Source: Bacteroidales bacterium Bact_13 | Lineage (GTDB): Bacteria > Bacteroidota > Bacteroidia > Bacteroidales > UBA932 | Direction: 5' to 3' | DNA: 35,108 nucleotides | Assembly: GCA_001602845.1 (NCBI GenBank) | Contig: LUZE01000003.1 | Location: 1 to 35,108, forward strand | Shown: positions 19,441 through 25,227 of the stretch, one piece after another | How the letters are laid out: each line of letters begins with the position of its first letter | How positions within the stretch are numbered: the stretch's first letter is position 1 | The notes under the pieces: generated by a model | The model's input: the letters and a program-made list of their open reading frames with translations, nothing else | Database searches by the model: none | Told to the model about the DNA's origin: nothing | Program-made: the position numbers and the translations under genes

Positions 19441-20340
19441 ATGAAACACGAGCAGCTTTTCGGACATCTGGCGGTAGCCGGGGCATATACGATCTTCGGG
19501 CTGAACATCGTCTTCAATAAGGACGTCGCCAACTCCGGGACCATTTCCCCCATGCTGCTCTTTACGTTTCGCGCCGGCGGCGCAGCACTCCTGTTCTGGC
19601 TCATCTCCCTCTTCACGCCCCGCGAACCCGTCGCTCCGCGAGACTTCGGCCTCATTATCCTGGCCTCGCTCGTCGGACTCTTCACCCCGCAGCTGACCTT
19701 CCTGTATGCCATCACGATGAGCACATCCATCGACACCTCCGTGGTGGCTACGCTGTCGCCGATCTTCACGATGTTCTTCGCCTTTCTCTTCCTGAAAGAA
19801 CCCATTACCTGGAAGAAGGCACTGGGCGTGGCGGTCAGTTTCGCCGGCATCCTGCTGCTCATCTTCAATTCGGTCCGTAACACCGGCGGCGTCTCGCGCA
19901 CGGAACCGCTCGGCTTCGTACTGCTGTTCCTGAACAGCCTGAGCTTCGCCCTCTATCTGGGCGCCTTCCGGAAAGTCATCTCTCGATACAGCGTGGTGAC
20001 TTTCATGAAGTGGACCTTCCTTGTTTCGCTGCTGGTTTCGCTGCCGTTCTCGGTCCGCGACCTTTTCTCGACCGACTATTCCGCCATCTCCGGCATCGTA
20101 TGGTGGGAGATCGCCTATGTCGTCGTGTTCGCCACCTTCGTGGCCTATTTCCTCATCCCGTACGGGCAGAAACGCATCCGCCCCACGCTGGTGAGCATGT
20201 ACACCTACCTGCAGCCCATCATCGCCGCCATCGTGAGCATCATCACCGGCCTCGATATCCTCACATGGCAGAAACTCCTGGCCACTCTGCTGGTTTTCGC
20301 CGGCGTCTTCCTCGTCATCCGCTCCCGCGCCGCCGCATAA
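19441..20340 (+). CDS. DMT/EamA family transporter
   Basis: ~10 TM segments; 'FLKEPITWKKALGVAVSFAGILLLI' and 'VSIITGLDILTWQKLLATLLVFAGVFLVI' are typical EamA repeats. Confidence 0.93.
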   Translation: MKHEQLFGHLAVAGAYTIFGLNIVFNKDVANSGTISPMLLFTFRAGGAALLFWLISLFTPREPVAPRDFGLIILASLVGLFTPQLTFLYAITMSTSIDTSVVATLSPIFTMFFAFLFLKEPITWKKALGVAVSFAGILLLIFNSVRNTGGVSRTEPLGFVLLFLNSLSFALYLGAFRKVISRYSVVTFMKWTFLVSLLVSLPFSVRDLFSTDYSAISGIVWWEIAYVVVFATFVAYFLIPYGQKRIRPTLVSMYTYLQPIIAAIVSIITGLDILTWQKLLATLLVFAGVFLVIRSRAAA

Positions 20341-20350
20341 CGGTTTTTCT

Positions 20351-20414
20351 CGTTTTGACAGTCCCCTGCACGTTTTGAAAGTACAGGATTTTCCTTTTTG
20401 ATTCCTCGGGAATC
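20351..20414. promoter_or_regulatory. Candidate operator region: 12-bp direct repeats spaced 20 bp plus a perfect inverted repeat
   Basis: CGTTTTGACAGT (20351-20362) and CGTTTTGAAAGT (20371-20382), 11/12 identical, exactly 20 bp apart; GATTCC-TCG-GGAATC (20400-20414). Confidence 0.55.
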
Positions 20415-20451
20415 GGGACGGAAAGTAACTTTATGCATCAAATTGTACGAT

Positions 20452-20595
20452 ATGAAAACGACAGAAAAACTAACTTATGAAACTCCCTCGACCGAGGTGC
20501 TCGAGGTGGTACAGGGAGGCGTAATTTGCGCCAGCGAAACACGGACGGATGGAGCTCCGTATTACAACCCGTTCAATGATGAAGAAGAGTGGTAA
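20452..20595 (+). CDS. Small ORF, 47 aa (Bacteroidales-type small peptide with a Gly-Gly motif)
   Basis: Internal ATG of the track ORF gives MKTTEKLTYETPSTEVLEVVQGGVICASETRTDGAPYYNPFNDEEEW. 15 bp before the lipoprotein gene. Resembles short Bacteroidales peptides of the 'YExPxxEVxEV' type, from memory. Confidence 0.65.
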   Translation: MKTTEKLTYETPSTEVLEVVQGGVICASETRTDGAPYYNPFNDEEEW

Positions 20596-20610
20596 TGGGA
20601 GGATTTAGTT

Positions 20611-21900
20611 ATGAAGAAGTTTTTTATTGTGCTTATCGCATCTTTGGTAGCGCTTGTGTCATGCGAAAAGGGGATTCTTGAACCGGAGAACGGAATTGAT
20701 GATGTAACGGTAAATCCCATCACTTTCAATCTCACGGCAAATCATCCGGATGCAACTAAGGCTATTAAGAGTGGCTGGGAAGACGGTGACGTTATTTTCG
20801 TGTTCTTCAACAATGTCCCTGCTCCGAAGTATTTGAAAATGAGTTATAACGGAACGACATGGACGAGTGCCGAGATGTATGGCGGTACGGTCACGGCTGG
20901 TGCTCTTGACCTGAAAAACGGAGATAACGGCTCGATGCGGGCTGTGTTCCTGCCTTTCGGTAGCGATGCGACAGTGTCTGCCAGCGGTACGGACTTCGTG
21001 TTCAACAAGACCTGGTACGCCTATTATCTGACAGCAACGCTTGATTATACTGTTGTAAATAACACTGTGTCCGGCGCTTTCAATATGACGATCCCGGATG
21101 ACTATGTACAGTTCTTCATAGATGACGCTACTGCCACCGACGAGGCCTATATGTTGGGCTGTGATGCCGTCGTCCCTACGGGCGTGGCTTCCATCTCCGC
21201 TGCCGGCACTGTCATCGAGACTAGCAACAAGACTGCTACCGACGACATGCCCGGCTATGCCTATAGTGGCGGATACCTGTTTAGCGGAAAGCTCGGCTCT
21301 TGGGGATATGGCTCAAACTATTACTTCGCCAAGACCAAGGTCGCAGACAATTCCCGCGCAGACTATTTCGTTACCGGCAAGACCCTCTCCAGCCACAGTG
21401 CCGTGAAACTGCCAGCTAACGATAACATCTATGCGGTAGTGGCCGGAACACCGAACGAGGGGAAATGGGTTCCCGTTGGCAGTGGAATTACTGTAGGGCT
21501 ATATGCCTCAGATCTGACCACTTCTCTCGGTACGTGGCATACCTGCAACTACAATCAGTCTGTGCCAGAATCTTATGGCACGTTCTACCAATTCAACGAA
21601 GCCAACGCTCAGAGTGTCACATTGCCAACAAAAGAACAGTTTGACTTGATTAACAATGCCGGCAATTGTTCCTATACCTGGATAAGGGTTCATGGTCTGG
21701 ATGGTACTGTAGTCAAGGCCTCCCGGGGTTTCCTATTTATGCCTAAACAGCCCAACGAAGATTGGCAAGGCGGCTATTGGTCTTGCACAGAGGGTGGCGA
21801 CGATTCCTACGGGTGGTGCTTCGTAATCGGCGGCAGCACCCACTATGTGTCAAACGTTGCCCGTATACGCAGTTATGCCATACGTCCCGTCTTAAATTAA
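20611..21900 (+). CDS. Predicted surface lipoprotein: fimbrillin-like N-terminal region plus FISUMP/C-type-lectin-like C-terminal domain
   Basis: SPII signal 'MKKFFIVLIASLVALVSC'; 'DATKAIKSGWEDGDVIFVFF' (fimbrillin-like); C-terminal 'VTLPTKEQFDLINNAGNCSYTWIRVHGLDGTVVKASRGFLFMP...GGYWSCTEGGDDSYGWCFVIGG...VARIRSYAIRPVLN'. Preceded by GGGAGG at 20597-20602. Confidence 0.75.
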   Translation: MKKFFIVLIASLVALVSCEKGILEPENGIDDVTVNPITFNLTANHPDATKAIKSGWEDGDVIFVFFNNVPAPKYLKMSYNGTTWTSAEMYGGTVTAGALDLKNGDNGSMRAVFLPFGSDATVSASGTDFVFNKTWYAYYLTATLDYTVVNNTVSGAFNMTIPDDYVQFFIDDATATDEAYMLGCDAVVPTGVASISAAGTVIETSNKTATDDMPGYAYSGGYLFSGKLGSWGYGSNYYFAKTKVADNSRADYFVTGKTLSSHSAVKLPANDNIYAVVAGTPNEGKWVPVGSGITVGLYASDLTTSLGTWHTCNYNQSVPESYGTFYQFNEANAQSVTLPTKEQFDLINNAGNCSYTWIRVHGLDGTVVKASRGFLFMPKQPNEDWQGGYWSCTEGGDDSYGWCFVIGGSTHYVSNVARIRSYAIRPVLN

Positions 21901-21917
21901 AGTGGGGATTATTTGCG

Positions 21918-21925
21918 TATCTTTG
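21918..21925 (+). promoter_or_regulatory. Bacteroidota -7 promoter element TATCTTTG upstream of the AraC-type regulator
   Basis: Exact TAnnTTTG match, 5 nt before the ATG at 21931. No well-placed -33 TTTG seen. Confidence 0.55.
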
Positions 21926-21930
21926 CAAGG

Positions 21931-23649
21931 ATGAGATATATCCGGTTCATAGGCGTCGCTTTGCTGGCGACGATGCTGGTCTGCGCGCAAGGCGCAGCGG
22001 CGGATGGTTTTCGGGCTGGACGGCATTTTTCTGCCGGCCAGGACGAAAACCAGAGCCGCGGAGCCTTCCAGCCATTGCGCGTCGAGCGGCTGCCGGACCT
22101 GAATGTACCGCGGAGCGGGCATTTCCTGGCATTTGTCAATGGGGAACTGACTGTCTTTGGCGGACACACGACAGGCTTTATTCCCACAGCCACGGCCGAG
22201 TACTATCGCGACGGGAGCTGGCATCTGATGGATATGTATTTCCCGCACGATTCCGGCTTCGGTGTGATTCTCCCTTCTCAAGAAGTACTCGTGGGAGGCG
22301 GCTGCGCCGAGCCTTTCGGTATCGGACAGACATGGGCCGTGGAACTGTACGATCCCGCGACGCACAGTTTTTCTCCGCTCCCCATACTGGATGTTAAACG
22401 CGGCGCAAATGCAAGTGCCGCGCGACTCTCGGACGGCCGTGTCATCGTGGCCGGCAACTGGTATGCGGAGGATATGATTTCAGTATATTCCCCTGAATTC
22501 GGTGGGGAATCCCTGCGTGTGCCTGTGCTTGGCCGTTCGATGCCGCTCATCCTGCAGACCGCCCCTGACAATGCCTTGATACTTAGTTCTTCCGGTACGC
22601 GGGGGAAGAATCTTGATCCCGTGGCAGACCGCTTGAAAGGAGAACCCGTCGAAGTACCGCTGCTGCAGGAATGGGAGTCGTGGATACGTCCCGATGTCTC
22701 TCAGATAAGCAATTATTTCATCGGCGATGAAACTGTGGGCGGTTATGCCTGGATTTTTCCTGCTATCCGGAAGGAAGACGGGCAATTAGGACTGATCAAG
22801 GTGGTTGGCGAGGAGTTCTCCGTATTGGAGACGGAAAGGCCCCTGCCTATGGCAACGCCGGAAGGTGAGGCCCTGACTCCCGGTGTCACCCTGCTTGCAG
22901 ACAGGGCGACTAGATGTGCATGGATCATCCGGACTGTCAAAGGGACTGGGCTGATTGATTTGGTCAAGGTAGATTACGGCGAAGCGCTTCATGGAGGGAA
23001 GGCCCCTATAAGCCTCTACAGGGCAGAGACGCCTGACGGCCGTCCCATTTATTCGATAGGGACGGCTCTGATGCCCGGTGGAGATATTGCGTTCGTCGGC
23101 GGCCTGGCAGACTCCGACAATTATCACCCTGACAGCATAGCATTCATACTTCACACAGAGCCGGTCGTGAAGTCCGGTTTCCCCGTGTGGCTGATTCTGG
23201 GAATCATCCTGGCTTTCGGCGTCGTCCTGGCAGGAGCTTTCGGGCGAATCCGGAAAGAATCCCGGAAAACGGTTCCCGTCCCGTCCTCGGACGACCAGGC
23301 CGTTGATCCGATGGACGAGCTGATGGCACGGATTACAGCACAGATGGAAACGGAGCATCTGTTCCTTAAAAACGGACTGAAGAAAGAAGACCTGGCACGG
23401 GCCGTCGGCTCGAACTCGCGCTACGTCTCTGACTGCATCAACCGGAATGCCGGATGCTCCTTCATCGATTATGTTAACGATTACCGCATCCGCTACGCCC
23501 AGCATCTGCTCTACGAGAACCCCGATATGCGCCTGTCGGAAATCAGCGAGGAATCCGGCTTCTCCAGCGAAGTTACCTTCTACCGCAACTTTAAGGCCCG
23601 CACCGGTCAGACCCCCGGCGAATGGCTCGCCAGCCAGTCCCGCTCCTAA
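21931..23649 (+). CDS. Transmembrane one-component regulator: signal peptide, predicted periplasmic kelch-like beta-propeller, TM helix, cytoplasmic AraC-type HTH
   Basis: 'MRYIRFIGVALLATMLVCAQGAAA' signal; repeats such as 'FLAFVNGELTVFGGHTTGF' and 'AARLSDGRVIVAGNW'; TM 'FPVWLILGIILAFGVVLAGAFG'; C-terminal 'DLARAVGSNSRYVSDCINRNAGCSFIDYVNDYRIRYAQHLL...SEISEESGFSSEVTFYRNFKARTGQTPGEW' (AraC HTH). Start chosen at 21931 rather than 21913. Confidence 0.85.
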   Translation: MRYIRFIGVALLATMLVCAQGAAADGFRAGRHFSAGQDENQSRGAFQPLRVERLPDLNVPRSGHFLAFVNGELTVFGGHTTGFIPTATAEYYRDGSWHLMDMYFPHDSGFGVILPSQEVLVGGGCAEPFGIGQTWAVELYDPATHSFSPLPILDVKRGANASAARLSDGRVIVAGNWYAEDMISVYSPEFGGESLRVPVLGRSMPLILQTAPDNALILSSSGTRGKNLDPVADRLKGEPVEVPLLQEWESWIRPDVSQISNYFIGDETVGGYAWIFPAIRKEDGQLGLIKVVGEEFSVLETERPLPMATPEGEALTPGVTLLADRATRCAWIIRTVKGTGLIDLVKVDYGEALHGGKAPISLYRAETPDGRPIYSIGTALMPGGDIAFVGGLADSDNYHPDSIAFILHTEPVVKSGFPVWLILGIILAFGVVLAGAFGRIRKESRKTVPVPSSDDQAVDPMDELMARITAQMETEHLFLKNGLKKEDLARAVGSNSRYVSDCINRNAGCSFIDYVNDYRIRYAQHLLYENPDMRLSEISEESGFSSEVTFYRNFKARTGQTPGEWLASQSRS

Positions 23650-23688
23650 TACACCGCAAAAACCGGCAGTTTTGTACGCGAGATTCAT

Positions 23689-23696
23689 TATCTTTG
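23689..23696 (+). promoter_or_regulatory. Bacteroidota -7 promoter element TATCTTTG before the YgiQ-type gene
   Basis: Exact TAnnTTTG match followed by CAAA and ATGATG at 23701. Confidence 0.6.
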
Positions 23697-23700
23697 CAAA

Positions 23701-25227
23701 ATGATGAGTCCGTTCCTGCCGACATCGAAAAAAGAGATGGAGGCGTTGGGCTGGGAGCAGCCCGACGTCATCCTTTTCATGGGCGACGCCTACGTCGACC
23801 ATCCGTCGTTCGGCGTTCCGGTCATCGCACGGGTACTGGAAGCCAAAGGCTATAAGGTCGCCGTGGTGCCGCAGCCCAACTGGCGCGACGACCTGCGCGA
23901 CTTCCGGAAACTGGGACGGCCCCGCCTATTCTTCGGCGTGGGCGCGGGAGCGATGGACTCGATGGTCAACCACTATACCGCCGCCAAGCGCCTCCGCAGC
24001 GACGACGCCTATACGCCTGACGCCCGCCCCGGCGCCCGCCCGGACCGTGCCACGATCGTCTATACGCGCATTCTCAAGGAACTGTGGCCCGACGTGCCCG
24101 TGGTCATCGGCGGCATCGAGGCCTCCCTGCGCCGGGAACGGCACTACGATTACTGGGACGACTGCATGAAACCGCCCATCCTCGAGGAGAGCGGCGCGGA
24201 TATCCTGATCGCCGGGATGGGAGAGAAAGCCAATATCGAAGTGGCACGTGCCTGCGAAAACGGTACGCTGGACAAGCTGCCCCGCATCCTGTACGGTCCC
24301 GCCCTGACAACTGAGGAAATGGACTGGATCTACGACCTGCCGTTCACGCGGCTCCCGCATCCCCGCTACAAGGGCAAGCGCATCCCGGCCTACGACATGA
24401 TCAAGTTCTCGATCACCACGCACCGCGGCTGCTTCGGCGGTTGCAACTTCTGCGCGATTACGGCGCACCAAGGCAAGCAGATCCAGTCGCGCAGCGAAGA
24501 ATCCATCCTCCGCGAGGTCGAGCGGCTGACGCACCATCCCGAATGGAAAGGCACCATTACCGACCTGGGCGCCCCGACCGCCAACATGTACCGTATGGGC
24601 GGACGCGACCGCAGCCTCTGCGAGAAATGCAAACGGCCGTCGTGCCTGTATCCGAACTTGTGCCGTAACCTCGACCATGACCACGCCCCGCTGCTGCAGC
24701 TTTATGAAAAGGTGCTCAAGGTGCCCGGGGTCAAGCACGTGTACATCGGCAGCGGCATCCGCTACGACCTGTTCCTCGACGAGAACGGCTTCCTCGATGC
24801 GACCGGACGCCGCTACTTCGAGGAACTCGTGACCAAACACACGGGCGGGCGACTGAAGATCGCACCCGAACACACGGTCGACCACGTGCTCGATGCGATG
24901 GGCAAGCCCTCCTTCAAGCTCTTCGAACGGCTGGAGAAGGAGTTCTACAAGCTGACCCGCGCACGTGGTCTGAAATACGAGATCATACCTTATTTCATTT
25001 CGGCCCACCCGGGCTGCACAATGCAGGACATGGAAGCCCTCGCGAAGCATCCCGCCCTGCGCGGCATCCGCACCGAACAGGTGCAGGATTTCACGCCGAC
25101 ACCCATGACCGTCTCGACCGAAATGTTCCATACCGGACGCGATCCGCGGACCGGGAAAAAGCTGTTCGTAGAGCGTTCCATCGAGAAAAAACAGCGGCAG
25201 AAGTCCTTTTTCTTCAAGAAACGCTAA
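23701..25227 (+). CDS. YgiQ family radical SAM protein
   Basis: 'LPTSKKEMEALGWEQPDVILFMGDAYVDHPSFG', radical SAM 'HRGCFGGCNFCAITAHQGKQIQSRSEESILREVERL', 'HPGCTMQDMEALA'. Confidence 0.95.
   Translation: MMSPFLPTSKKEMEALGWEQPDVILFMGDAYVDHPSFGVPVIARVLEAKGYKVAVVPQPNWRDDLRDFRKLGRPRLFFGVGAGAMDSMVNHYTAAKRLRSDDAYTPDARPGARPDRATIVYTRILKELWPDVPVVIGGIEASLRRERHYDYWDDCMKPPILEESGADILIAGMGEKANIEVARACENGTLDKLPRILYGPALTTEEMDWIYDLPFTRLPHPRYKGKRIPAYDMIKFSITTHRGCFGGCNFCAITAHQGKQIQSRSEESILREVERLTHHPEWKGTITDLGAPTANMYRMGGRDRSLCEKCKRPSCLYPNLCRNLDHDHAPLLQLYEKVLKVPGVKHVYIGSGIRYDLFLDENGFLDATGRRYFEELVTKHTGGRLKIAPEHTVDHVLDAMGKPSFKLFERLEKEFYKLTRARGLKYEIIPYFISAHPGCTMQDMEALAKHPALRGIRTEQVQDFTPTPMTVSTEMFHTGRDPRTGKKLFVERSIEKKQRQKSFFFKKR

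Follow-up and report, generated by a model that had tools for sequence, protein, structure and literature searches.

A candidate adhesin operon with exchangeable cargo and its own predicted membrane sensor in a Bacteroidales genome

Within the window, the 35,108-nucleotide stretch that was analysed, from a contig of a 2.1 Mb Bacteroidales genome whose named relatives are mostly ruminant MAGs, three genes probably constitute a self-contained, locally regulated adhesin operon with swappable cargo, a membrane sensor, an operator of three half-sites and an RRE-linked peptide. This reading is comparison-based, drawing on gene association, on operator conservation and its tracking of the regulator HTH, on cargo exchange, and on peptide-RRE co-occurrence. 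The regulator would be a one-component inner-membrane sensor, with a periplasmic Kelch propeller, a TM helix and a cytoplasmic AraC HTH, that binds the direct-repeat operator of three half-sites just upstream of the operon. In response to a periplasmic or envelope signal the regulator would activate the peptide-lipoprotein promoter, while itself being transcribed at a basal level from a separate promoter. Strains would swap the adhesin and the peptide gene by recombination within a stable frame made up of operator and regulator, and the peptide would be recognised at its YxxP by the genome's PqqD-RRE and exported via an S24-peptidase/ABC cluster. The predicted features are as follows.

20352..20362, + strand: half-site 1, GTTTTGACAGT, predicted operator, GTTTTGA-type
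20372..20382, + strand: half-site 2, GTTTTGAAAGT, predicted operator, at an exact 20-bp spacing from half-site 1; homology of the DNA to the related locus L007 stops here
20395..20405, + strand: half-site 3, degenerate TTTTTGATTCC, predicted operator
20426..20433, + strand: Bacteroidota -7 box TAACTTTA, TAnnTTTG-like, for the transcript of peptide and lipoprotein, ~30 bp downstream of half-site 3
20452..20595, + strand: YxxP peptide, 47 aa, Y9 and P12 invariant; probable RRE-recognised precursor
20611..21900, + strand: lipoprotein, 429 aa, lipobox Cys18; predicted fimbrillin-fold adhesin
21918..21925, + strand: -7 box TATCTTTG, 5 bp before the regulator ATG
21931..23649, + strand: regulator, 572 aa, with signal peptide 1-19, Kelch propeller ~50-410, TM 419-440 and AraC HTH ~460-571

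The block is flanked by genes for an EamA transporter and a YgiQ-type radical SAM protein. As the first-pass annotation had it, the block is AT-rich and its 47-aa ORF, lipoprotein and regulator genes are collinear: all are on one strand, with gaps of 15 bp (peptide-lipoprotein) and 30 bp (lipoprotein-regulator), and the GC content is 0.414 in the upstream region (20341-20451), 0.486 in the peptide gene, 0.501 in the lipoprotein gene and 0.574 in the regulator gene, compared with 0.595 for the window. GC3 in these genes is 0.51-0.64, against 0.82-0.83 in the neighbouring ones. The YgiQ-type gene at 23701 has a clear Bacteroidota promoter of its own, as read from the sequence (23671-23696; TTTG at 23671, TATCTTTG at 23689), so that the block probably ends before it.

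The regulator and its predicted operator

The proposed architecture of a propeller joined through one TM segment to an AraC HTH is borne out by a Pfam scan, a structure model and Foldseek. The HTH is matched by HTH_18 (PF12833, E=1.9e-18; 66.9 bits against a cut-off of 33.6) and has the C-terminal double-HTH character of AraC/XylS proteins. The model (mean pLDDT 86.8, from a 32-sequence alignment) contains, in order, a signal peptide, a beta-propeller, a TM helix at residues 419-440 and an all-helical AraC domain. Kelch falls below the Pfam threshold, yet is clear in the model, and Foldseek relates the propeller at probability 1.00 to KLHDC10, NS1-BP, Keap1 and galactose oxidase, consistent with a Kelch-type fold. 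Histidine kinase and receiver domains are absent from the regulator in both the Pfam scan and the model. Matches to the regulator at E<=1e-40 are present in 33 of the 300 family genomes (a few of them partial), and outside the family full-length matches were found only in three genomes of two families, within a 393-genome sample of the order. The window's own genome carries a second regulator paralog, interrupted by a contig end (L002, 1495-2625), and two other loci (L074 and L075) encode relatives whose Kelch propeller follows a long N-terminal extension, with Ig-like repeats as judged by eye, and which have no HTH.

The direct repeats reported upstream of the operon hold up statistically. 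Half-sites 1 and 2 agree at 11 of 12 positions, counting the preceding base, a similarity reached at period 20 in 0/5000 dinucleotide shuffles and at any period from 18 to 25 in 14/5000, and a degenerate third copy follows. The same half-site pair precedes eight related loci (L007, L009, L010, L014, L077, L079, L080 and L081) in differing chromosomal surroundings, and the operator is known from only about nine loci; the third site is more or less degenerate across the eight, with a perfect copy at 22 bp in L079 and L080, and half-site 1 is degenerate in L080. A search for the period-20 operator gave five sites in 40 genus genomes, all at modules, and eight sites with exact 20-bp spacing in 300 family genomes, 8/8 of them heading modules with a regulator; allowing a spacing of 19-21 bp raises the number to 12, and the remaining four (spacing 19 or 21) match no listed regulator location. 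The paired operator occurs once in the window's genome, which points to a local circuit and led us to reject a genome-wide regulon.

The strongest point for the operator is a natural domain swap among the relatives. The motif is present at L079-L081, where the regulators are 71-79% identical to that of the window in the HTH and 49-51% in the propeller, and is absent at L013 and L078, where the HTH is 47-48% and the propeller 60-62% identical; in these alignments the predicted operator thus tracks the HTH and not the propeller. A second regulator clade (L083, L085 and L090) has a different repeat of its own, TTTAAARGAATTGTCC-like in two copies at period 22. Both observations are what direct operator binding by the regulator predicts, and they provide comparative evidence for AraC/XylS-type binding of direct repeats near a promoter. 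Since motif and HTH go together, the upstream repeats, and through them the peptide and lipoprotein genes, are very probably the regulator's target, and the suggestion that it controls both is well supported by the comparison. In some regulator clades there is no clear repeat upstream of the nearest gene, and at L012 a related regulator (propeller 64% and HTH 52% identical) has no adhesin operon upstream.

The half-site positions argue for activation rather than repression. AraC proteins usually activate from upstream sites such as those seen here, at roughly -40, -65 and -85. A TATCTTTG or TAACTTTG is present at the equivalent -7 position in L010, L014, L079 and L080, and in L010 and L014 it has no good -33 partner, in keeping with a promoter under activation. 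Repression of the operon by the regulator through the operator, in which half-site 3 lies closest to the promoter, with release on ligand binding, is unlikely; the direct repeats do stop some 30 bp short of the -7 box, but both the activator-type layout and the missing -33 box weigh against it. As to the regulator's own expression, a TAnnTTTG box lies near its start in 36 of 47 loci, compared with 4% of random windows, and a separate, near-leaderless promoter is probable; the basal transcript would keep the sensor present before induction.

The small peptide and the RRE cluster

The 47-aa ORF belongs to a family that is dispersed through the genus at 0-26 copies per genome and has YxxP in 103/103 distinct members. 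YxxP is a characterised RRE recognition sequence (PMC12710340, PMC10368454). The ORF had been labelled a GG-peptide, a description that does not extend to the family: GG before V/I/L/F/M occurs in 8/103 peptides, and a double-glycine (C39) leader was rejected for this reason. Among the evaluable peptides, 84/96 precede a gene for a signal-peptide protein (71 of them lipoprotein-like), compared with 146/1725 random short ORFs, and the family precedes secreted lipoprotein genes with or without the Kelch-TM-AraC regulator.

PqqD-type RREs are present in 34 of the 40 genus genomes, and in the genomes inspected they are mostly found in a cluster with a ScmC/PEPCK-like protein, an S24-like peptidase and an ABC exporter; the window genome's own cluster, with the same four components, is on another contig (L212 7302-10526, G000:C164). 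Across 255 family genomes, nearly all of them MAGs in which absences are uncertain, 62 have both peptide and RRE, 10 the RRE only, 12 the peptide only and 171 neither, with the RRE cut-off (E<=1e-25) set after seeing the data; at a cut-off of 1e-6 the counts are 70/51/4/130 (p=2e-24). A within-genus permutation reaches 62 in 0/20000 trials, and the association persists once regulator genomes are removed, with the caveat that the RRE is present in 24/26 of these. At one locus (L241, genome G054) the RRE cluster has two peptide-lipoprotein pairs immediately in front of it. Elsewhere, a YxxP peptide adjoins a PqqD-RRE and a radical SAM gene in a more classical RiPP layout (L242 4130-5680, G211), and at L175 9383-11611 the peptide is in frame with the following lipoprotein as a single 742-aa ORF, either a fusion or a sequence error.

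The YxxP motif and the co-occurrence with the PqqD-RRE/S24-peptidase/ABC-exporter cluster together suggest that the 47-aa ORF is probably an RRE-guided exported precursor, the family having both the leader motif and the genomic RRE that mark an RRE-dependent RiPP precursor. There is perhaps a one-in-several chance that it instead acts in translation or attenuation, as a leader for the lipoprotein gene, and yields no exported product, as would fit its stop codon 15 bp before the lipoprotein ATG and the nearly constant pairing; conservation of YxxP at the protein level and co-occurrence with an unlinked RRE cluster are both unexpected, however, if the product is irrelevant. Less probable still is a pheromone loop in which the Kelch propeller would sense the exported peptide, sensing of the peptide being one of several options raised in the first-pass annotation. 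The peptide family is present in 25/26 regulator genomes and the exporter would place the peptide on the side of the membrane where the propeller is, but L007, L009 and L081 keep operator and regulator without a peptide and 49 genomes have peptides without the regulator. The idea that the peptide is specific to the regulator fails on the same grounds, and we rejected it as the regulator's private partner.

Beyond the probable precursor role of this one ORF, the small peptides may form a new Bacteroidales RiPP-like class, in which one RRE/peptidase/kinase-like/exporter cluster per genome serves up to ~20 precursors, each encoded at the start of one of the scattered surface-adhesin operons, and in which a subset of those operons are swappable cassettes with their own Kelch-TM-AraC sensor; we regard the chances of this wider proposal as evenly balanced.

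The lipoprotein and its exchange between strains

The lipoprotein matches by Foldseek 3ufi (E=5.9e-7) and 4eps (E=3.9e-6), solved Bacteroides cell-adhesion and fimbrial proteins, at modest TM-scores (0.22-0.45), and its lipoprotein signal and modelled beta-sandwich fold place it in the fimbrillin superfamily. It had been described as fimbrillin/lectin-like, and the fimbrillin part stands; the lectin-like part has its support in the relatives, 10 and 7 of 21 of which match Lcl_C (PF07603) and FISUMP (TIGR02145), respectively, at E<=0.01, a threshold at which the window protein matches neither. A VanW match (E=0.0036, below cut-off) is regarded as chance. In Legionella the Lcl C-terminal domain, which is C-type-lectin-like, is a binder of sulphated glycans (PMC11162425); for the window lipoprotein a glycan ligand is something we only infer.

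A neighbourhood search, the test by which the first-pass annotation's reading could have been refuted, found the three families together in related genomes. A same-strand lipobox lipoprotein is located within 160 bp upstream of 29/47 regulators inspected, by a strict criterion that leaves out L007 and L009; in most loci the lipoprotein is immediately 5' of the regulator, and in some others it is divergent or downstream. The peptide directly precedes that lipoprotein in 20/47 loci and is somewhere in the fetched locus in 30/47. The regulator-linked lipoproteins vary from ~230 to 1320 aa, and their matches to Lcl_C, LamG, FISUMP and fimbrial families suggest that many are surface adhesins.

Relatives at the same chromosomal position conserve the operator and regulator around an unrelated lipoprotein, from which we conclude, on these alignments, that the adhesin is swapped between strains while its predicted operator and regulator stay. 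DNA homology between the window and L007 covers 20210-20382 (82%) and resumes from 21905 (80%), with nothing between, and that with L009 extends up to 20401 and resumes from 22067. L080 shares 65% identity with the window in the lipoprotein but only 50% in the regulator, and L007 shares 79% in the regulator, with a lipoprotein that is barely similar. The homology breaks adjoin half-sites 2 and 3, as they would if the repeats served a mobile cassette in recombination or transposition and were not an operator, but this is very improbable given that the motif tracks the HTH sequence, lies at a similar distance before the promoter in most loci and is not found at the module's other end, and that no recombinase was seen within modules.

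Relationship to known systems and implications

The predicted sensor has parallels among the SusR-like regulators of Bacteroides, which are also inner-membrane one-component proteins with a periplasmic sensor and a cytoplasmic DNA-binding domain, and have predicted direct-repeat operators whose motif similarity follows regulator similarity (PMC3878776). In SusR the repeats are spaced 67 or 77 bp and the DNA-binding domain has no similarity to a known family (PMC3878776), whereas the module here has a period of 20-23, a true AraC HTH and a Kelch sensor, placing it outside the SusR family, and carries adhesin cargo in place of glycan uptake. The Bacteroides HTCS share a large periplasmic sensor domain, a TM segment, an AraC-type output and local targets (PMC3878776), but the regulator here is no HTCS, having direct TM coupling without histidine kinase or receiver. 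The lipoprotein shares the fold of its N-terminal part with fimbrillin-type adhesins (3ufi, 4eps), and its relatives share the Lcl C-type-lectin-like domain (PMC11162425); unlike fimbrillin-type adhesins, it has no pilus assembly genes seen beside it and would be carried as cargo by a regulated, swappable cassette. Lasso and other YxxP-leader RiPP precursors (PMC10368454, PMC12710340) have in common with the peptide the YxxP, the PqqD-type RRE and the kinase-like and exporter genes in the genome, but here the precursor genes are spread out in front of surface-protein genes, most of them well away from the RRE cluster. YxxP would fit a lasso peptide, but the B2 protease (PF13471) is over cut-off in 1/40 genus genomes, not the window's, and that assignment was rejected. 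In the literature searched, with most subscription papers outside its scope, there is no named system of this make-up and no match for the combinations of kelch, AraC and fimbrillin or of PqqD, S24 and Bacteroides.

The first-pass annotation missed the cargo swapping, the peptide's link to the RRE and export genes, and the regulator's own promoter. The tie to the RRE/export cluster gives a candidate function to a large family of unannotated small proteins. The module predicts matched regulator-operator pairs and would offer a testable route for adhesin exchange in uncultured rumen Bacteroidales with regulation kept intact, and the swap may be how these gut bacteria change what they adhere to.
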